A stretch of 64,000 bases of DNA from assembly GCA_903813345.2 (NCBI GenBank), contig CAIIXF020000002.1:22768455-22832454 (forward strand). Direction: 5' to 3'. The stretch comes from Owenia fusiformis (Eukaryota > Annelida > Polychaeta > Sabellida > Oweniidae). A program made the position numbers and the translations under genes. This document shows positions 3,036 through 63,160 of this stretch, in pieces. Each line of letters begins with the position of its first letter. Within the stretch, counting starts at the first letter, position 1. The notes under the pieces are model-generated. The model was not told the origin of the DNA and ran no database searches. It saw nothing but the letters and a program-made list of their open reading frames with translations.

Positions 3036-3407
3036 GGTGTTAGCGTAGATAATATGAGATTTGCTAAGCTAATGGTTTCATTCATCATTTTACAATTATT
3101 TTTCTAAATGATCGATAATACGATGATAACGAGAAAAGTAATAATAAAATGATATTATGAATTCTCTCATTCATGGATTTGGTACTCTACGTTGCCATAT
3201 AAAATATTCTCTGTCTTAGTTCAATACCATAATGCCCAGAGCCTTAATAAAATAAAACTTTTCAAAGAAACAAAACTGAACCTTTCAAAAGTGAATATGA
3301 TTATAATTTAGATGTGAAGTTCTCTCAAAAAGAAACCAAATCAAAGTATTGAAAGGGGTTTATGTGCATGTAATTTTGAGGTTTGTTAAAACTTAGGTGG
3401 TTTTTCA

Positions 3408-3525
3408 AGTAGTGTTTTGAGGAGTTGTCTCAAATAGGGTTTGAGGAGGTTTCTTCAGTTGGGTTTTGAGGAGATATCTTTAGTTGAGTTTTGAGGAGGT
3501 GTTTCAAATAGAGTGTTTTTAGTAG
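3408..3525. repeat. Degenerate ~33-bp repeat
   Basis: gttttgaggagNtNTNtc motifs (gttttgaggagttgtctc, gttttgaggagatatctt, gttttgaggaggtgtttc) repeat four times. Confidence 0.7.
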
Positions 3526-5909
3526 ATTCTTATCTAGGACTTCTAAGATGGTATACCAAAGTAGATATGCTAATAGATACACAGTAAAGAGGGCAGCACC
3601 TTACATCTGTATAGTCTTTTTGCCTTCTCCTGGCTTGTTTAAAAGATAAAAGGAATGATGAAAACATCAACTTGCTGTATTATATTTGATTTAAAATCCC
3701 CCAAATCATAATTTATTACATTTTGCACAAAAGAAGGAATGACGTTTTTAGCAAATGCAAGAAAAACAATCCCAGAAATGTGTATTGATCCATAAATAGA
3801 AGCTGTATTTTGTCTAGCCACACTATATTTGATGCATCACTTCCAGGTAGCTTCATTGGCTCACAGTGTGGGCCTAAGGCATTAGGTAGGCATCTGTCTG
3901 TCTACCTGTCAGTGCATTTGTCCATCAACATCAAAAAGTCACAATTTGTTAATATGAACAGACAATACGCAATATAGAACAGGAGTGTACACAGGATTTT
4001 TTCAAGGAGGTTGCACCTTTACATCTATATTTAAAAAAGTCCCTGTCATCATAACTTGCACTTGAATCCTGGCAGCTTCTCCACCTCTTTCCCCTCAGGA
4101 GCACATAGTTCTTCCTTAGTCTCATTTTCCTCAGCACCACTATCAAAATCCTTGGGGATTGGATCAATGCACTCCCTGGATACGCCCAAGTAGAATACAC
4201 TTTGTAAGCATAGGGGCTTGTCAGCCCACATACAACTCTGCTATGCAAAAGCATGTTTATCTATCCGATGTATAAAAAATGAGGTTTATATGACAAAAAT
4301 CGCTCATAAATTGCTAGAAATATGTCAGACGTCACCTTAACGACCAGAATGATGGTTATAATGTTTTTTTTGGAAATAATTGCATTTTTTATTCATCAAA
4401 TAAATCAGCTCTTGGTCTCATCTCGTCATGTAGCAATGATATTGTCCCAATCGAGGTATATAGATTCTAGTCTCTTTTTAAAGATGAGATTTAACATAAT
4501 GTTTTATTGAAGGCAATCCAGACTTTATAAACCTTAAAAAACTTTGAAGGAATAACAAAACAATTATCCTATGATTTATGAATGATATGATTTTTATCTA
4601 CAAATGAATATTGATATCTGTACAAGCGTTTTTTTATAAAAATGATAATTCAGATACTTTATACCAGATGGATTTGAATTAATAGCTGGAAACTCGGGGA
4701 AATGTCATGTTGCGATAATGTATTTTATATTCAAGGTCTAATATAGAAGAATAGCAGACAATGTTGAATAATTCATCAACTGTGACTGAATAATCTATGG
4801 ATATATTTGCCACAGTATAAAATTAATATAGACGTCAGGTTGTTTGTATCTAAACTGGAAATAAATACAGCGAGACCTATATATAGAGCGTGAACATTCT
4901 TGCATGTAACAGACTAACAGCTTTATTGATCTTGGAATCTTTTCACTATGGGCATCATGTATCTTTGAAAGTACGAATGGCTCATCTTAAAAAGCGCAAT
5001 TTTTGATTAGCTTTACATCGCATCAATTTGTAATTGTAATGAGCCATTTTGCTGTATTTTTTCTTCTGCTTCGAGCATTTTTAACATCAGTGCTGGTTTT
5101 ATTTATAGAGTTAGCGACTTTACATCTCTGAAGGAGAACTTTGTCCTTACTTAAGTGTAGAAATTTCATTTTTTATTAGATTAAGGGTTTTATTTGCGTA
5201 ATAAATTATCTAATACAATTACAGTAATTGTAAAGGGCCTAGACTGAAAGCATTATTGGCCCCTCTGGCCTCTAAACCGAAAAAATTAAAAGATATTCAG
5301 AATCTCAATTCAAGAGAATGTCTGGAGACAACGGACGGACAGACAGTAGCGAGGCCGAGTCCGTAAAATATACTTAATGGTGAGTATATAATGGTGAGAT
5401 GAGTTAGATTGGGTTGGGTCAACCTCAGTCACATATGATATTGTATAAGAATCTTTTCCTCTAGAATTTGTTACACTAAAGGTAATCCTGACTAAGGTTG
5501 AAAATATAATTGCCCGATGTAACATCTTGGCATTCTGATTCTATTGCTTGAGTAGGTGCCCTTGTCTAAGTTCATTGTCAGAGTGAAAGGTGATTGCCAT
5601 TGGTAGACAGCTGTGAGTTTCAAGCCCTCATGACTAGAACAGCATGCCTTATTTTCTTTAAGATCATTGACACTGGCATTTTTATGAGACTAATGCGAAA
5701 CAAAATTAATATTTTATGAAAGTTGTTTTATAAAGGCGATCTTACATTGGAAATATCTGAGGGATTACCATAATACCATGTGTTTTAATACCCTGTATCT
5801 CTGTTGGCTTACCATTTAACCCTCTGACTATCATAGGCAATTTTCTGATTTAGAGACAATCTTAACAATCTCAAATGCAGCTTCATCTCGTTAATTAGTA
5901 TGGTGAATA
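3526..5909. other. No gene or element recognised
   Basis: Only short chance frames. The minus-strand frame at 3949-4254 lacks any family pattern and splice context. Confidence 0.5.
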
Positions 5910-6350
5910 GTTGATGACAAAGTCTGATTAGATACAGGCTAGATCAATGGAATATTTTCTGTACTAAAGAGGGATATGAATTTGAGCTTTTGTAAAGGGT
6001 ATTGACAAAATCTGGTTATATACAGGTCAGATCAATGAAATATTTTTTAGAGGGATATGAATTTGAGCTTTTTGTAAAGGGTATTGACAAAGTTTTGTTG
6101 GATACAGGCCAGATCAATAAAATATTTTCTGACTGAAGAGGGATATGAATTTGAGCTTTTGTAATGGGTATTGACAAAGTTTGGTTAGATACAGGCCAGA
6201 TCAATAAAATATTTTTTTGACTGAAGAGGGATATGATTTTAGCTTTTGTAAAGGGTATTGACAAGGTCTGGTTAGTTACAGGTCAGATCAATGAAATATT
6301 TTCTGAACTGAAGAGGGAAATGAATTTGAGCTTTTATAAAGGGTATTGAT
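5910..6350. repeat. 87-bp tandem repeat, 5 units
   Basis: attgacaaagtctggttaga, tacaggccagatcaatgaaa, gaagagggatatgaatttg blocks recur near 5910, 6001, 6083, 6170 and 6257 with units of 82-91 bp. Confidence 0.9.
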
Positions 6351-6676
6351 TCAACAGGATATAAGCTGAAATACACTTTGTTAGCTTGGAATAAATGGCT
6401 CTTTAATATCATACATAAAACTTCAAGATAAAACAAAATTGCAAATTGTTATGGAACATTTATAGTGCAAATTCATTTATTTATATTCACAATTGATTAG
6501 GAATTATTGAAGCCAGAATATATTATGATTATTTTAGTAAAAAATTGATAATTGGTTACGATGGAAATGACAGTCATACTGAATTTTTAAACTATTTTAT
6601 AAGTATTGTGTCATTTGTTATATATAAAACATATATTCAAGAACTGAATAATGGTATTAACACTCCCCCCAGTTTT

Positions 6677-6772
6677 CTGCAAGTTAAAATGCTCAATTCT
6701 GCAAGTGAAATTAGTGAATTCTGCAAGAAGAAAGGGCTAGTTCTGCAGAAATTCCGCGGATATTCGCGGCAT
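6677..6772. repeat. Left subterminal motif cluster of the BED-finger transposon
   Basis: Four ctgca-containing motifs (tctgcaag three times, tctgcagaa once) are followed by attccgcggatattcgcggc. The other end has the same motif types in inverse orientation. Such subterminal clusters are typical transposase-binding regions of hAT-type elements. The CGG-containing palindromes are a plausible target for the element's own CGGBP1-like finger; this is inference. Confidence 0.6.
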
Positions 6773-6994
6773 TTTTTTGCGGTTATTATAAAAAAAATCA
6801 AGATTGGTTTAACAAGAACAGTATCATATATTCTAAAAACATGATTTGATAATCATATTCCTACATGTTAAACCCTGCCACAAACAAATTTGACCACTGA
6901 AAGTTCCATTTCCATGAAAATGCTGTAATTAATGCCATAATCTACGAGTATGTCTTTATTTTTAGTCTCTGACAAGTCCGATGCCATGGACAAA

Positions 6995-7592
6995 TCACTG
7001 ATTGAGTAAAGCAATGATTTCATCGAGCACATCATCAATGTTCGGTACCTCATCATACCAATCTTGGCAGACCTGAAAATAATCCATTATTTTAATTAAA
7101 TTGTGTATTTAAAATAAATCTCTTCAAATTAAGTATTTAAATATCATCTGGAATTTGGAAATTAAAATTCTAATTAATGTAATTTAAATATTTTATTCGA
7201 TTCCTTTAACTTTTGAATTTCTAAGTTACTTAAGCTAATGACAATCATCTAGATTTAGATCTACATGTACATGTAAGTACCTCAATGCGAGATTGGGATG
7301 AGACAGTTGCACTACTTTTCATAGTTGTCAGTATTGTTCGTGGTCTTTTAAGTGGGTGTGGACTTGCGTTTCCAGTTTGTTTGTGATCTTCTTTTTTCTT
7401 TAAATGTTTGTTTGAAGCAATGTGATCAGTTATGGTTGATCTCCGACTATGATCAACAACAATGTGACAATACAAGCAAAACATTCGATCACCGTCGCAA
7501 TACATTTCCTTTGGAAATTCTCTAGCTCTTTGGTTTGCTGAAATTTTAGAGGAATGTGTTGGTTCTTTTATTTTTTTTACGAAACGATCCAT
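6995..7592 (-). CDS. CGGBP1-like BED-type zinc-finger protein, two exons, transposon-encoded
   Basis: Exon 1 runs from the ATG at 7592 down to 7281 and ends ATTGAG|gtactt. Exon 2 runs from 7072 to a TGA at 6995-6997, after the acceptor ttattttcag. The intron is phase 0, giving 129 residues. Residues 38-66 carry C39-x2-C42-x14-H57-x5-H63 in the context MFCLYCHIVVDHSRRSTI, TDHIASNKHLKKK, matching in spacing and flanks the finger of CGG-repeat-binding protein CGGBP1. A lysine/arginine-rich segment follows (LKKKEDHK, LKRPR). Exon 2 adds an acidic tail (WYDEVPNIDD). No hAT catalytic region is present. It is likely a DNA-binding helper or a domestication-like remnant. The exon 2 join is inferred from splice signals only. 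Confidence 0.72.
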
Positions 7593-8028
7593 TTTAAATG
7601 TTTTATTCAGATTTTATTTCAAATTTCACATTTTTCGAAACTTCAAACACGGAGGATCGGGCGCATAATGGGAATCACGATATATGTAAATCAGGTTTAA
7701 AGTGTAATATCTCATTGGAGTTCGAAGTTTTCGATCAATAACTTAATAATATAAATAACTGTTATTAATTTATGTCTTTGTTTAACTTTCTGACGAGAAC
7801 CGAAAGAAAAACTAATGGTTTTCGAACCAGTAAACGGGAAAATATCGTGATAGTCAGGTAGTCAGTCTCAGTCACTACATACATGCTGCCATCTAACGGC
7901 AGAAATCAAACGATGGCGTTTAGAATTTTCACTTCGCATAATTTGGGTTATTTCTGCAAGGGATTTGACTGAAAACGTGTCAAATTGTTACAGGTAAGAC
8001 TGACTTTTTAAACTTTTGGAAAATATAT

Positions 8029-8120
8029 GGATTCTGCGGAAAATTCCGCGGAAATTGACCAAAATAGTTGATTCTGCAATTCCGCGGGCAGAGGCAAATT
8101 CCGTCCGCGCTCTGCAAACA
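8029..8120. repeat. Right subterminal motif cluster of the BED-finger transposon
   Basis: The stretch holds ttctgcggaaaattccgcgg, ttctgcaattccgcgggc, aattccgtccgcgc and ctctgca. CCGCGG occurs twice here and once in the left cluster, which is high for this AT-rich region. Confidence 0.6.
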
Positions 8121-8145
8121 TGGAATCCTGGGGGCAGTGTATTAA

Positions 8146-19125: not shown

Positions 19126-19353
19126 AGCTATCGATTATATAATATTTTGATGATACTATATAAAGTACTGCTTAATAAATAAATAAAAAATTCTTTTAAA
19201 TATAAGCATTATACCAACAGAGAAGAGAATGAATTAATGGAGGGAATGGGGCCCATCCACTGAGTTAATTGGAAAAGGGGGTACTTGGTAAATATCAAGG
19301 GTTGGTATTGAGCGGAGGCTTCTCCTTTCAGGAAACAATGGGACATAGTTGAA

Positions 19354-19836
19354 GTGGCTTTTTAATGTAGCATCACATGGTCTCACCTTAACTAGAAGTG
19401 GTTTTTTAATGTAGCATCACATTGTCTCACCTTAACTAGAAGTGGCTTTTTAATGTAGCATCACATGGTCTCACCTTAACTAGAAGTGGCTTTTTAATGT
19501 AGCATCACATGGTCTCACCTTAACTAAAAGTGGCTTTTTAATGTAGCATCACATGGTCTCAGCTTAACTAAAAGTGGCTTTTTAATGTAGCATCACATGG
19601 TCTCACCTTAACTAAAAGTGTCTTTTTAATGTAGCATCACATGGTCTCACCTTAACTAGAAGTGGCTTTTTAATGTAGCATCACATGGTCTCACCTTAAC
19701 TAAAAGTGGCTTTTTAATGTAGCATCACATGGTCTCACCTTAACTAAAAGTGGCTTTTTAATGTAGCATCACATGGTCTCACCTTAACTAAAAGTGGCTT
19801 TTTAATGTAGCATCACATGGTCTCACCTTAACTAAC
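19354..19836. repeat. 44-bp minisatellite, 11 units
   Basis: gtggctttttaatgtagcat, cacatggtctcaccttaact and aaaa make a unit. Units are nearly identical, so the array is likely length-polymorphic. Confidence 0.95.
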
Positions 19837-39944: not shown

Positions 39945-40977
39945 GTGGAAATACCTTAATGAGAAAGACAAAATGAGCATTATAAATACCTTAATGGGAA
40001 AGACCAAAGGAGCTTTAAATAGAACATTCTTAATGAGAAAGGCCAACAAGAGTTTTATATGGAACAACCTTTTGAATGAGAAAGGTTAAAAGAGATTTAT
40101 GTGGAACTACCTCAATGAGAAAGACCAAATGAGCTCTATGCGGAACTACCTTAATGAAAAAAGCCAAAAGAGCTTCATGTGGAACCACCTTAATGAGAAA
40201 GACAAAAAGAGCTTTATATAGAACAACCTAAATGAGAAAGGTCAACAGGAGCTTTATATGGAACAACCTTTTGAATGAGAAAGGCTAAAGGAGCTTTATA
40301 TGAAACTACCTCAATGAGAAGGGCCAAAAGAGCTTTATACGGAACTAACTAAATGAGAAAGGTCAACAGGAGCTTTATATGGAACAACCTTTTAAATGAG
40401 AAAGGCTAAAAGAGCTTTATATGGCACAACCTCAATGACAAAGGCTAAAAGAGCTTTATATGGAACTACCTTAATGAGATAGGCCAGAAGAGCTTTATAT
40501 GGAATTTCCTTAAAGAGAAAAGACCAAAGTACCTTCATATAGAACTACCTTAATGAGAAAGACCAGCTTTATATGGAACTTACTTAATGAGAGAAAGACC
40601 AAAAGAGCTTTATATTGAACAACCTCAATGAGAAAGGCCAAAAGAGCTTTATATGGAACTACCTTAATGAGAAAGACCAAAAGAGCTTGATGTGCAACTG
40701 CCTGAATGAGAAAGACCAAAAGAGCTTAATGTGGAACTAGCTTAATGAGAAAAATGAAAGGAATTGTGGAACTACCTTAATGAGAAAAATAAAAGGAGCG
40801 ACATGTAGAGCTTTATATGGAACTTCCTTAAAGAGAAAGACCAAAATACCTTCATATAGAACTACCTTAATGAGAAAGACCAAAAGAGCTTTATATGGAA
40901 CTACCTTAATGAGAAAGGCCAAAAGAGCTTTATATGGAACTACCTTAATGAGAAAGACCAAAAGAGCTTTATATGCA
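39945..40977. repeat. 39-bp minisatellite, about 26 units
   Basis: accttaatgagaaagaccaa then aagagctttatatggaact repeats with substitutions and some 40-bp units. Its length (three times thirteen) leaves long minus-strand frames such as VFLIKVVPYKALL, which are artefacts. Confidence 0.95.
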
Positions 40978-40999
40978 AGGCTGAGTTGGATAAGGGTAT

Positions 41000-44213: not shown

Positions 44214-45098
44214 AATTAGTGGTATATCTGTGTTAAGCATATATAACTCTCGTGACAATGTCATTTATTGAAGATTTTAGGAGTTTTTGAAAGATTTCCT
44301 GACTAGTTGTCTGAGGCAATTCTTTTCCACTATTTATTTCTTCCCTTAGGTAATTGGTCTTGACAGCATTAACTTTCATTTCGCATTCTTCCAAGTGCAA
44401 ATCCATTTGGAGACTTCCTTCATTAGCATGTCGCATGACAAGGGATGTTGAAGCCAGATTTCACAAATGGCAAAAGTTCAATAATACTTTGGAAAAAAGC
44501 TATTAGACTAGTGTAAATAAATGATATGTTAAGTAAGGCTGTTGTAAATAACAGATATGCTGAGTTAGGCTAGTAGTGCTGTCCCCAGCTCCGATTTCGG
44601 TGATCGGCTAGTAAAAAAGGTTTGAGGGTATCATTTTGTTCCAGACACTCTCTAGAGTAAATTATCCTAACTTGAGTAAAAATGTGTGGTAAGTAAATTC
44701 GCTATGGGCAGTTAAAGAGGCGCCATCTATTCATTTTAAAACAGGGGGTAGGGGTATAAAATAATTTTTAACACATCTTAATAGTAAAATGACATTGAAA
44801 TACTAATAAAATCTTATCAAAAACATTATTTACAATCAGTATGAATTTTTTTGTGTGAATTAGGGTGAAAATAAGGGCATATTTTGAAATTCACTACAGG
44901 GGCGCCACCTATTTTCATACTTCTACCACGTGTAATAACTTATTTTAGATTCGTTAAGGTACGAAATGTACTGAAAAAATTCATTCTGAAGGACCTATAT
45001 ATGTTCATACCACATACTTAAAATTGGATCAATTGCTTATGTACTGGCGGAGAAAAAAATTCTTGAAATTTAAAATTTTGGCATCATGCAGGATAGGG

Positions 45099-46140
45099 GT
45101 GACCATATCTCACATGATTAACTTCCAAAATATGGAGCATATGTATCTCAAATGTACTCAAAATGGTGTATGTACTCTTGCTTTGTCATAATATTACTAA
45201 TAAGAAGTAGAAAAATGATTGTACATTTTAAAAAATATTAATTCTCATTTTGGCTTCTGAGGTCCCAGGGGTGACCATATCTCACCTTAATAACTTCCAA
45301 AATATGGAGCATATGTATCTCAAATGTACTCAAAATGGTGTATGTACTCTTGCTTTGTCATAATATTACTAATAAGAAGTAGAAAAATGATTGTACATTT
45401 TAAAAAATATTGATTCTCATTTTGGCTTCTGACGTCCCAGGGGTGACCATATCTCACCTTAATAACTTCCAAAATATGGAGCTTATGTATCTCAAATGTA
45501 CTCAAAATGGTGTATGTACTCTTGATTTGTCATAATATTACTAATAAGAAGTAGAAAAATGATTGTACATTTTAGAAAATATTGATTCTCATTTTGGCTT
45601 CTGATGTCCCAGGGGTGACCATATCTCACCTTAATAACTTCCAAAATATGGAGCATATGTATCTCAAATGTACTAAAAATGGTGAATGTACTCTTGCTTT
45701 GTCATAATATTACTAATAAGAAGTAAAAAAAAATAATTGTACATTTAGAATAATATTGATTCTCATTTTGGCTTCTGACGTCCCAGGGGTGACCATATCT
45801 CACCTTAATAACTTCCAAAATATGGAGCATATGTATCTCAAATGTACTCAAAAAGGTGTATGTACTCTTGCTTTTTTATCATAATATTACTAATAAGAAG
45901 TAGAAAATGATTATACATTTCAAAAATTTTAATTTTAGCTTCTTACGTTCCTGGGTAATCATATCGCACCATATAATAATAATAATAACTTCTAAGATAC
46001 TGTATGTAACATATAATCCTCATCCTGTCTTTTTCATATTACTAATGAAATGTAGAAAAATGTAGCATTTTTTTATAAATTTTAATTTTAGCCTCTGGTG
46101 TCCCAGGGGCTATCTCACCTTGATAACTCTCACGATATGC
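45099..46140. repeat. 172-bp tandem units in the left arm of the giant foldback
   Basis: gtgaccatatctcac recurs at 45099, 45271, 45443, 45615 and 45789, and in decayed form near 45954 and 46107. Each unit carries aatatggagcatatg, catctcaaatgtactc-type and cataatattactaataagaa motifs. The outer units are more alike than the inner ones. Confidence 0.95.
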
Positions 46141-53951: not shown

Positions 53952-54512
53952 ATAATGATAAGATTCACCATATTGTACATGTATATAATGGTAAGATTCA
54001 CCATATTGTACATGTATATAATGGTAAGATTCACCATATTGTACATGTATATAATGGTAAGATTCACCATATTGTACATGTATATAATGGTAAGATTCAC
54101 CATATTGTACATGTATATAATGGTAAGATTCACCATATTGTAATGGTAAGATTCACCATATTGTACATGTATATAATGGTAAGATTCACCATATTGTACA
54201 TGTATATAATGATAAGATTCACCATATTGTACATGTATATAATGATAAGATTCACCATATTGTACATGTATATAATGATAAGATTCACCATATTGTACAC
54301 GTATATAATGGTAAGATTCACCATATTGTACATGTATATAATGGTAAGATTCACCATATTGTACACGTATATAATGGTAAGATTCACCATATTGTACATG
54401 TATATAATGATAAGATTCACCATATTGTACATGTATATAATGGTAAGATTCACCATATTGTACATGTATATAATGGTAAGATTCACCATATTGTACATGT
54501 GTATATGCTAAG
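53952..54512. repeat. 33-bp minisatellite, about 17 units, just upstream of the exon
   Basis: The unit is gattcaccatattgtacat followed by gtatataatggtaa. Units recur every 33 bp from 53962 to 54480, with one shortened unit at 54127. Single-base variants (ggtaa/gataa, catgt/cacgt) are interspersed. Because 33 is a multiple of 3, both strands stay open, which creates spurious repetitive frames. Decayed units continue to about 54740, close to the exon acceptor. Confidence 0.95.
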
Positions 54513-54740
54513 ATTTACCTTATTGTACAAACATTTTCCACATTGTACATACGTATATGCTATGATTTACTGTATTGCACATGTGTTCATGCTAAAGTCC
54601 ATCATATTGTACATGTCTATATGCTACGATTTACAATATTATACGAATTAATATGTTACAGTTCCCCATATTGTACAAATGTTTTTAGATGCTATAATTT
54701 CCCATAAATATTACACATAATAGTATTTTTATTAAATAAT
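54513..54740. repeat. Degenerate continuation of the 33-bp minisatellite
   Basis: Motifs such as ttaccttattgtaca, tttactgtattgcaca, catcatattgtacatg and ccccatattgtacaaatg repeat at roughly 30-40 bp spacing. They grade from the regular array into unique sequence before the exon. This looks like an older, decayed part of the same array. Confidence 0.6.
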
Positions 54741-54767: not shown

Positions 54768-54857
54768 GATGCGATACTGAAGCTGAGTGGGGTAACAACA
54801 CTAGAGGAGCTGAGACAAGCTATACAAGAGGCACTACAACTAGCCCTTCCAAACACA
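54768..54857 (+). CDS. PDE2A-like: Internal exon, PDE2A-like (cGMP-stimulated phosphodiesterase), N-terminal region
   Basis: This is the only host coding exon I can support. It is preceded by an acceptor (tgtatgtttcag) and followed by a donor (ACA|gtaagt). It is 90 bp long, 30 codons, phase 0 at both ends, with no stop. The peptide starts DAILKLSGV, continues TTLEELRQAI and ends QEALQLALPNT, an amphipathic helix pattern. From memory, the stretch before GAF-A in vertebrate PDE2A follows the same order (D-A-x-L-x-L, a hydrophobic turn, then A-V-x-E-A-L and L-P). PDE2A hydrolyses cAMP and cGMP and is activated by cGMP binding to its GAF domain. No neighbouring exon was found, so flanking introns would be large. 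The 3' half of the exon is tandemly duplicated downstream. The exon call is strong; the family call is moderate. Confidence 0.6.
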
Positions 54858-55312
54858 GTAAGTGCTCACTATTTTAGCATTAAATTCAAGCTATACAAGA
54901 GGCACTACAATTAGCCCTTCCAAACACAGTAAGTGCTCACTATTTTAGCATTAAATTCAAGCTATACAAGAGGCACTACAACTAGCCCTTCCAAACACAG
55001 TAAGTGCTCACTATTTTAGCATTTAATTCAAGCTATACAAGAGGCACTATAACTAGCCCTTCCAAACACAGTAAGTGCTCACTATTTTAGCATTTAATTC
55101 AAGCTATACAAGAGGCACTATAACTAGCCCTTCCAAACACAGTAAGTGCTCACTATTTTAGCATTAAATTCAAGCTATACAAGAGGCACTACAACTAGCC
55201 CTTCCAAACACAGTAAGTGCTCACTATTTTAGCATTAAATTCAAGCTATACAAGAGGCACTACAACTAGCCCTTCCAAACACAGTAAGTGCTCACTATTT
55301 TATATTAGTATA
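54816..55312 (+). repeat. 71-bp tandem array made from the exon end and its splice donor (7 units)
   Basis: Units start at 54816, 54887, 54958, 55029, 55100, 55171 and 55242. The first is the native exon 3' end plus the start of the intron. Every unit keeps the last 42 exon bases, a GTAAGT donor and about 20 bp ending in ttttag. Differences are few (actaca versus actata, attaaa versus atttaa). Donor-like GT positions are 54858, 54929, 55000, 55071, 55142, 55213 and 55284. Because 71 is not a multiple of 3, reading past donor 1 meets a TAG in the second unit, so use of donors 2-7 would truncate the protein. Confidence 0.95.
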
Positions 55313-60336: not shown

Positions 60337-60679
60337 TTTTTTATTGACGTCAGTTTCTCGGACATATGGGTCAATATACAGGTTTTTACACATGTTTTTT
60401 TGTATAAACAGACATCAATTTTTTATAATAGTATAGAATAATTATATCAAGACATTATTTGCATAGAAAAATATGAATATACAGTGTTTATATACATCTA
60501 GAGAAATAATTAAATAAACCAGCTTATATTCAGATTAAACTGCATTAGCAAGTCAAAATTCAGACAAACATCTCATATATATCCTTCCACTGAAAACAAA
60601 TATCTATTAAAAGTCTGTAAATGCTGTGGCAAATGTAGAAATTGATGTCAATATTGCATGTTCTTCTTTGTCTGAACCT

Positions 60680-61655
60680 AGCACAATATGTCTGACCATG
60701 ACTCAAGTTATCGAGACAAGATGGCATGCTCTCCCTTATCTGAATCTGGCACAATATGTCTGACCATGACTCAAGTTATCGAGACAAGATGGCATGCTCT
60801 CCCTTATCTGAATCTGGCACAATATGTCTGACCATGACTCAAGTTATCGAGACAAGATGGCATGCTCTCCCTTATTTGAATGTGGCACAATATGTCTGAC
60901 CATGACTCAAGTTATCGAGACAAGATGGCATGCTCTCCCTTATTTGAATGTGGCACAATATGTCTGACCATGACTCAAGTTATCGAGACAAGATGACATG
61001 CTGTCCCTTATTTGAATCTGGCACAATATGTCTGACCATGACTCAAGTTATCGAGACTAGATGGCATGCTCTCCCTTATCTGAATCTGGCACAATATGTC
61101 TGACCATGACTCAAGTTATTGAAACAAGATGGCATGCTCTCCCTAATCTGAATCTGACACAATATGTCTGACCATGACTCAAATTATCCAGACAAGATGG
61201 CATGCTCTCCCTTATTTGAATCTGACTCAATATGTCTGACCATGACTCAAGTTATCGAGACAAGATGGCATGCTCTCCCTTATTTGAATCTGCCACAATA
61301 TGTCTGACCATGACTCAAGTTATCGAGACAAGATGGCATGCTCTCCCTTATTTGAATCTGGCACAATATGTCTGACCATGACTCAAGTTATCGAGACAAG
61401 ATGGCATGCTCTCCCTTATATCTGAATCTGGCATAATATGTCTGACCTTGACTCAAGTTATCGAGGCAAGATGGCATGCTTTCCCTTCTTTGAATCTGAC
61501 CATTACTCAAGTTATCGAGACAAGATGGCATGCTCTCCCTTATCTGAATCTGGCACAATATGTCTGACCATGACTCAAGTTATCGAGACAAGGTGGCGTG
61601 CTCTCCCTTATCTGAGTCTGGCACAATATGTCTGACCATGACTCAAGTTAACGAC
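60680..61655. repeat. 68-bp minisatellite, about 14 units
   Basis: gcacaatatgtctgaccatg, actcaagttatcgagacaag and atggcatgctctcccttatc form the unit. The first spacing is 60691 to 60759. One unit near 61495 is shortened. Confidence 0.95.
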
Positions 61656-61659
61656 CCAA

Positions 61660-63160
61660 GATGGCAGAACTGTAGTAGTAAACCTCAGTCATGTTTGCTC
61701 TACGATCGTAGCGTCACAAAATCAATATAGAAAATCGACATCGTACTGTATTCCTACATTTTGCTGCATATTTCTCTTGATTTTGGGAAGCCATGTCTGC
61801 TGTACAGTTGCCGTAGCTAATATGTGACTAGAGAATAAATCAGCATGAAGTGAGCTGAAATAAATTTTACAGGGATGTTCTTCAAATCGTTACTCATTTG
61901 TACCTGTATTTGTCTTCATTGAACAATGACACCTGACTTAAGTTCATATTATCCTCTTAATGAGTCTCAATCTCCTACAGACGAGTCTACTCTTCATATA
62001 TTACTGTTCGTCTCTGCGGTGATTACTTTACTCGGGGGTCAAAATTATATATTGTTTTTTTTGAAAAATGCTCTTATTATGTCTTGTATGAGTATAATTA
62101 GATGTTAGGTTCTGACACTCATGGCAATTAGATGTAGCAATATGAGCTGTGATTTTTCAAAAATATCTTCATTTTCTTCTTGAAGCTAGAAGACATCAGA
62201 AATTGCTGTTATTAATGATATCATAAATGATTCATTAAAGTAAATGGAGACATCCGGATGGTTTTATCATTAAACTATCTATTTTTGAAGCAGCACATTT
62301 TCTATTTGTTCAACTTTAATGAAAGTTTATGAAAGGAAGAGAGAAAAAGAATAATAATTCTGTTTTGAACTTTGACTCTTCAGTATCAGCCAATAGACAA
62401 TATGATGTAAGAGTGCTACAACCTGATTTTTGTTGTGGACTCTTGCCATTTTCTGAATGAAATTAGACATGGTGTGTGAAGAAAGGTCTTTAAAATGTTA
62501 TCTGGCATTTACTTGGTTGAATTTTTGCTGAAATATCTCGTATCCGTTCAGTTTTCATAGGAAAGGCACGTCTCCTTTGACATTTTCAATACAGAAGGGG
62601 ATGATCTAGAAAGGAAATTGAACATCCTTGTCATGATGACATCATAAACAATCCTAGTCCCTTCAAAATATTTCAAACCCCAGGATCTTCAGCAATAGTT
62701 TGGCTTGGAAGATATATAACATTTTAAATCTCGAAATCCTTAGCGATTTTGGGCTTATAAAACTATTCCTCAAGGATTACTTTAAAATTAAGGCTTATCA
62801 AGTATGACCTAGCATGGCTATGAGAAATGTGTTATTGGTTTCTGAGGACCGGTAGTTTATTTCATAGTTGTAAGGTATCTCCAACCTTCTACATGCCCCG
62901 ATCATCAATTCTGGTTTAATTCACAGTACTGAATAGGTTTCAATGAGCGAAGACAGAAAGATAAGAGCATTTGAAATCCATACATTTCCATAAATACATC
63001 TGATAATTTCAAGCAGGATCGATGCATTAAACACTATCAAAAATAATTATTCTTTTGCGGGTATTGATGAAACACTCGTGGGATGTTATTTGAAAAACAG
63101 GAATATACAATAACAATTTTGAGAGGTACTCTTGTATTGATTTTATTCTGAGGTGTTATT
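61660..63160. other. No gene or element recognised
   Basis: Includes a 60-codon + frame (61926-62108) with a possible acceptor (ctcctacag) but no clear donor. I do not call it an exon. Confidence 0.4.

Follow-up and report, generated by a model that had tools for sequence, protein, structure and literature searches.

The window, a stretch of 64,000 nt from Owenia fusiformis, contains a mobile element whose gene encodes a zinc finger resembling that of CGGBP1. CGGBP1 and dozens of its relatives are thought to be separate domestications of hAT transposons, and how the finger separates from the rest of the enzyme is not stated in the accessible part of the paper that describes them (PMC8097297). 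The locus raises the question of where such a gene comes from. The initial annotation, which noted the lack of a transposase, suggested a minimal carrier of the finger gene or an undescribed non-autonomous family. Alternatively, the gene may be a part of the element's own transposase.

Element Boundaries and Target Site Duplications

The complete element occupies 6661-8139, with CACT starting at 6661 and CAGTG finishing at 8139. It is flanked by TATTAA on the left (6655-6660) and on the right (8140-8145). The terminal inverted repeats, CACTCCCCCCAG at 6661-6672 and CTGGGGGCAGTG at 8128-8139 (both read on the plus strand), form an imperfect 12-bp pair with one mismatch.

The host genome (498 Mb, 525 contigs) was searched for both ends. 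The whole-genome pattern search found 122 left ends (at most two mismatches) and 122 right ends (at most three mismatches), and the reversed-pattern controls for left and right ends gave 0 matches. Among the listed ends (100 left, 100 right), 90 pairs could be formed with a spacing of 405-2021 bp. Most of these listed pairs are short, since 86 of the 90 measure 405-830 bp; 508 bp (25 pairs) and 458 bp (12 pairs) are recurrent lengths. The family copies that were read are mostly internal-deletion derivatives. In one short class (L016, L017, L021, L026, L028, and L030), element position ~104 is joined to ~1153, so that the left end corresponding to window 6661-6764 (element 1-104) and the right end corresponding to 7813-8139 (element 1153-1479) are retained on the plus strand. 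Across 82 copies, the first 104 bp differ by a pairwise median of ~1% and the last 300 bp by a median of 1%, and the largest divergence between two right ends is 20%. The ends of the window copy are ~99% identical to those of many other copies. The first DNA search of the host genome scored 40 of 209 candidates.

Duplications were counted in 82 of the 88 family loci read. An exact 6-bp duplication directly abuts the ends in 70 of these 82 copies with readable flanks, against a mean of 1.1 when the flanks are re-paired at random. Other lengths are rare (7 bp in three copies, 5 bp in one, 8 bp in none), and the insertion sites are AT-rich. The 12 remaining rows were inspected by eye. They comprise exact 6-bp matches offset by 1-5 bases (L008, L022, L027), one mismatch (L025), 7-bp matches (L013, L039, L055), a 5-bp match (L021), and no duplication (L007, L054, L077, L083). 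Six loci were left out of the count: L019, L020, L023, and L024 have one end missing or foreign, L031 is the same place as L006, and L026 has one extra base in the left end, for which reason the pattern missed it. L026 also carries an exact 6-bp duplication, outside the 82-copy count. A further 79 paired copies were listed, of which 60 were read and 19 were not.

The element is thereby confirmed as real, with ends that recur far beyond chance. The limits and the TATTAA duplications given by the initial annotation are exact, and its description of an intact non-autonomous transposon with a true 6-bp duplication is borne out by the family ends found across the genome. It had named different boundaries in other copies, or termini lying off the insertion sites, as evidence against the element. 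Instead, the boundaries are the same in other copies, and the termini coincide with insertion sites.

Structure of the Finger Gene

An open frame of 122 codons on the minus strand of the element encodes a C-x2-C-x14-H-x5-H finger (7404-7478), in which the zinc-binding pattern is C39-x2-C42-x14-H57-x5-H63. Exon 1 (7281-7592, minus strand) consists of 104 codons, starts with MDRFV, and encodes the BED/CGGBP1-like finger and a linker; it is the only whole copy found in the host genome. It is followed by a predicted GT-AG intron of 208 nt (7073-7280), whose removal extends the similarity to CGGBP1 through VCQDW. Exon 2 (6995-7072) begins with VCQDWY and continues with DEVPNIDDVLDEIIALLNQ and a stop, giving the translation VCQDWYDEVPNIDDVLDEIIALLNQ. 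Downstream on the same strand, AATAAA at 6955-6960 is a putative poly(A) signal of the truncated gene. The sequence strongly suggests transcription leftwards from the right side of the element, removal of the 208-nt intron, and a product of 129 aa. No stop and no frame break interrupts the 129 codons.

The predicted spliced protein was compared with a CGGBP1 sequence not drawn from a database record. Over residues 1-109, 32 of 113 columns are identical (E 1e-16 for the single pair). This alignment runs through VCQDW against SVIQDF and ends at residue 109, which is also the position of the deletion junction described below. No Hermes-type DNA-binding domain follows the finger, as the similarity to CGGBP1 ends at this residue. 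The Pfam search of the finger protein gave no match to BED, and its best hit, zf-U1, reached 15.2 bits where 22 is required. For exon 1, AlphaFold gave a poor model (mean pLDDT 55.3) that displays, with low confidence, strands followed by a helix as in a BED finger. A PDB fold search with this low-confidence model gave no match at E 0.001, and a PDB sequence search gave nothing significant (best E 0.074); neither the model nor the PDB searches count as evidence here. On the basis of the finger spacing and the alignment to CGGBP1, the CGGBP1-like finger of the initial annotation is upheld; the predicted intron and the second exon had been overlooked. The window copy is the sole family member found in the genome search with a whole finger, and two others retain the first 21-22 codons.

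A Transposase Tail in the Second Exon

PF05699, the profile of the hAT dimerisation domain, was also run against the host genome, and 150 of the 183 candidates were scored. At least 138 matches were found, and one of them (C10:32011001-32011165) lies inside the family copy L015. By rough arithmetic, random placement of 138 matches would put ~0.02 in the ~60 kb of family copies. L015 is 1152 bp long, its ends are 99% identical to those of the window copy, and its PF05699 remnant has the same strand as the finger gene. The match is weak in the genome search (28.1 bits, E 6.6e-4). Read with an X over a frame break in the tail, the remnant reaches 29.6 bits (E 6e-7), above the curated cut-off of 21.4. 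The domain is therefore present as a remnant above cut-off in the sister copy and absent from the window copy itself.

The frame of L015 finishes in DEVPNIDDVLDEIIALLNQ and a stop. The window gene has the same last 19 residues and stop, in the same frame. The shared tail indicates that the finger gene is a transposase gene with its middle deleted, not a captured gene. The start of exon 2 corresponds to the start of the transposase exon 2, and the rest is the transposase C-terminus. The junction of the internal deletion lies in frame at approximately 7056/7057, at the upper limit of the sequence common to L015 (element 1-396, window 6661-7056). The statement that the element lacks a transposase thus holds for the catalytic part, but the last 19 transposase codons and the stop are present. 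A minimal carrier is not an apt description either: the finger is encoded by exon 1 of what appears to be the element's own hAT transposase, fused in frame to the tail.

L010 and L011, two diverged elements whose left ends are related, have homologous fingers. These are 53% and 45% identical to that of the window copy and have the same orientation, and both are broken. The finger is therefore a property of the transposon lineage and not something that the window copy alone captured. In the stretches read, L010 and L011 retain the finger and no hAT tail was matched. This is what might be expected if the finger were a separate accessory gene that had a short second exon of its own, and if a different gene, now lost, had encoded the transposase. 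The complete-looking start, intron, stop, and AATAAA of the window gene would also suit such a gene. However, a separate gene would not be expected to finish in a transposase tail, and the last 19 codons and stop of exon 2 are the hAT C-terminus of L015 in the same frame. In addition, the first residues of exon 2 extend the CGGBP1 alignment. An accessory gene is therefore very unlikely.

Assignment to the hAT Superfamily

From these sequence features, the family is classed as hAT. The N-terminal BED-type finger of the superfamily is recognised by its spacing and by the alignment to CGGBP1, with Pfam BED unmatched. The usual target duplication of hAT elements is 8 bp, whereas in this family 6 bp is found in 70 of 82 copies and 8 bp in 0 of 82. 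IS3EU and Dada elements make duplications of ~6 bp (the phrase '6-bp TSD' occurs in the Dada paper), and the duplication length alone would suit an element of these or a similar superfamily that had captured a hAT-derived finger together with a hAT fragment. This origin is hardly credible. Both coding remnants are hAT-type, share a strand, and are ordered as they would be in a single hAT gene, and inspection of the copies, short of a Pfam scan of every open frame, revealed no other transposase remnant. Furthermore, the accessible part of PMC12730594, citing Kapitonov and Jurka 2007, lists hAT families with 5-, 6-, and 7-bp duplications (hAT5, hAT6, and hAT7). The 6-bp duplication, which the initial annotation had regarded as a departure from hAT, is accordingly a property of hAT6 families already in print (PMC12730594). 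The window family shares with hAT6 the hAT-type C-terminal domain and the 6-bp duplication. It differs in having no full transposase, and its fit to hAT6 is by duplication length, not by tree.

Very probably, then, the window element is a young non-autonomous hAT copy with 6-bp duplications, and its gene arose from the family's own transposase gene through an internal deletion. The parent would have been a hAT transposase gene, and the deletion would have run, in frame, from just after the start of exon 2 to the last 19 codons. The gene left behind would comprise exon 1, the 208-nt intron, and about five residues of exon 2, followed by an in-frame jump to the natural C-terminus. Its product would combine the BED/CGGBP1-like finger with a basic linker and the tail of the transposase. 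The Hermes-type DNA-binding domain would be missing from it, as would the catalytic core and the hAT dimerisation domain. Internal deletion by faulty repair is usual for cut-and-paste transposons, and faulty repair of a cut element probably produced this deletion as well. For movement, the element would depend on a full transposase supplied from elsewhere that recognises its ends, and no such enzyme was found in this assembly.

Search for a Full-Length Copy and Relatives of the Family

The initial annotation had proposed a search for a longer autonomous relative with a transposase. With exon 1 and exon 2, the hAT tail, and the L011 finger as probes, no full-length autonomous copy was found in the host genome. 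Likewise, no copy combining the finger, catalytic core, and dimerisation domain was found in this assembly, which has gaps and withheld stretches, by a search with a loose first step. The finger-gene and hAT-tail probes found no copy that retains the RNase H-like catalytic core and retrieved solely the pieces described here and distant relatives. The autonomous member may have been lost from the family or may be missing from this assembly. The parent gene can, tentatively, be pieced together from two deletion derivatives, the window copy and L015.

Several candidates for a longer copy were rejected. L013, the longest pair (2021 bp), consists of a 730-type deletion copy and an unrelated insertion. 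This insert (~385-1835 of C3:16147530-16149950) has long inverted repeats and is foldback-type in appearance. L014 (1390 bp) contains an insertion, and L019 is truncated. Around 13 ends without a listed partner (L016-L028), ~3 kb was read each, and mostly short copies with a divergent other end were seen. L023 and L024 have no left end within the 3 kb read, and a longer copy extending beyond 3 kb is possible there. L020 is a hybrid of two related families: at ~2270-2811 of C10:35794100-35797100, 227 bp of the left end of the window family is combined with an apparent right end of the L010 family.

Older relatives were sought through their left ends, which are mostly CACACAT...TAGTTTTCTGCATG. 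Of 19 pattern matches, 16 were read; L011 was already included, and C4:27611231 and C7:14400582 were omitted as unlike the rest. By eye, and with no chance control, 6 of the 16 have a 6-bp duplication at a fitting right end (L093, L094, L100, L102, L107, and L108). L095, L097, L101, and L104 have duplication matches at the same offset with no convincing end, and no clear duplication was seen in L010, L011, and L020 in this test. Among these older relatives, L093, L102, and L108 (741, 817, and 810 bp) are non-autonomous, with CACACAT...GAGTG termini next to apparent 6-bp duplications.

Two further loci contain related hAT tails. L110 has an open 217-aa hAT C-terminal frame at 3173-3823 (PF05699, E 2.8e-8) and a related end, CTGTCCCCTCAGTTTTATGCA, at ~4027. 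Its finger and other end were not found at this second hAT locus, which is possibly a less damaged relative. In L111, a 183-codon open frame (2023-2571) joins an L110-type hAT tail in frame to other sequence. It is perhaps a second tail fusion.

Subterminal Motifs and Probable Recognition of the Ends

The left end contains four TTCTGC repeats (6675-6746, plus strand), which start at 6675, 6697, 6719, and 6741 with an exact spacing of 22 bp; TRF reports a 22-bp array at 6675-6727. A CCGCGG palindrome follows at 6754-6759. On the right (7952-8087), TTCTGC occurs at 7952, 8032, and 8072 and CCGCGG at 8046 and 8082. In element coordinates, the left TTCTGC repeats are at 15, 37, 59, and 81, and CCGCGG is at 94, 1386, and 1422. 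The 431 bp of the ends contain seven TTCTGCA and three CCGCGG, compared with means of 0.05 and 0.00 in 145 same-size tiles of the remaining window. Plain CGG is unexceptional, with 11 in the ends against a tile mean of 2.75, and 6 of the 145 tiles contain at least 11.

In the accessible part of PMC10368747, the BED fingers of Hermes bind subterminal repeats of the left end but not of the right end. In the four hAT-encoded CGGBP proteins with known motifs, as far as they are covered in the accessible text, the motifs have matches in the subterminal regions of their own elements (PMC8097297). Given these precedents, the lost transposase likely recognised the TTCTGC and CCGCGG motifs through its finger, and a full transposase elsewhere would have moved the deleted copies.

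The most speculative step, to which the confidence placed in the deleted-transposase origin does not extend, is that the finger-only protein would still bind the ends and dampen transposition. It would then be a trans-acting repressor of its family similar to KP, in addition to being a transposase remnant. KP is an internally deleted P element that keeps the DNA-binding front of the transposase and represses transposition (PMC4938643, accessible part). The architecture of the window gene is KP-like, as the transposase start is kept and the rest deleted, motif clusters are retained in the ends, and the frame is open through 129 codons. However, one copy of the window type was found, whereas KP is described in the same source as widespread in populations (PMC4938643). 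The window protein would also lack the Hermes DNA-binding domain and the dimerisation domain, and an in-frame junction has a one-in-three chance of arising. The conserved prolines of the Hermes domain have been linked to specific binding in CGGBPs (PMC8097297, accessible part). A repressor role is thus possible but unlikely.

Comparison with Known Systems

In the accessible part of Yellan, Yang and Hughes 2021 (PMC8097297), most matches of the CGGBP1 model are to hAT-19 elements. The window family shares with the hAT-19/CGGBP group an N-terminal CGGBP1-like finger from hAT and CCGCGG-type subterminal motifs. However, CGGBPs consist of a finger and a Hermes domain, whereas the window product would continue for about five residues past the intron and then enter the C-terminal tail. 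CGGBPs are also immobile host genes, whereas the window copy is still in a mobile element with complete ends and perfect duplications. The open frame and intact gene signals could mean that the finger gene has already been domesticated and is kept by the host. This is extremely improbable: the element around the gene is intact, its duplications are perfect, and its ends are ~99% identical to those of many copies, which would leave little time for selection to show.

Like KP, the window copy is an internally deleted cut-and-paste element that encodes the N-terminal part of a transposase, in which DNA binding is predicted. It differs in superfamily, in the single copy found, and in the natural C-terminus regained in frame. 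The hAT MITEs BuT2 (PMC3942097) and Mar (PMC3517528), as presented in the accessible text, are also short copies with conserved ends, and those of BuT2 arose by internal deletion. MITEs are defined there as having no coding capacity (PMC3517528), whereas the window copy retains an open spliced frame.

By its sequence, the window element is a non-autonomous hAT and as such nothing unusual; what makes it instructive is the gene it carries. Each piece is already known, namely 6-bp hATs, CGGBP fingers, and KP-like deletion copies. A copy in which a hAT transposase became a finger-only protein with a regained natural stop was not found described in open-licence papers (Repbase was outside this scope). 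The window copy represents one plausible first step toward such proteins: a single in-frame deletion just past an existing intron, with a natural stop, in a copy still mobile. It illustrates that one such event can be enough to produce a finger-only protein. Should the product bind the ends, a direct test of the transition from parasite to regulator would become possible. It is conceivable, though quite unlikely, that this is a CGGBP-type protein at birth, in which one in-frame internal deletion of a hAT yielded a spliced, finger-only DNA-binding protein that spreads along with its element, represses that element, and is ready for use by the host.

The window also contains tandem repeats outside the element. 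Just left of the element, 5915-6349 contains five copies of an 87-bp unit. Six further long arrays with differing units are located at 19352-19835, 39946-40978, 45095-45926, 53952-54529, 54816-55302, and 60649-61666.
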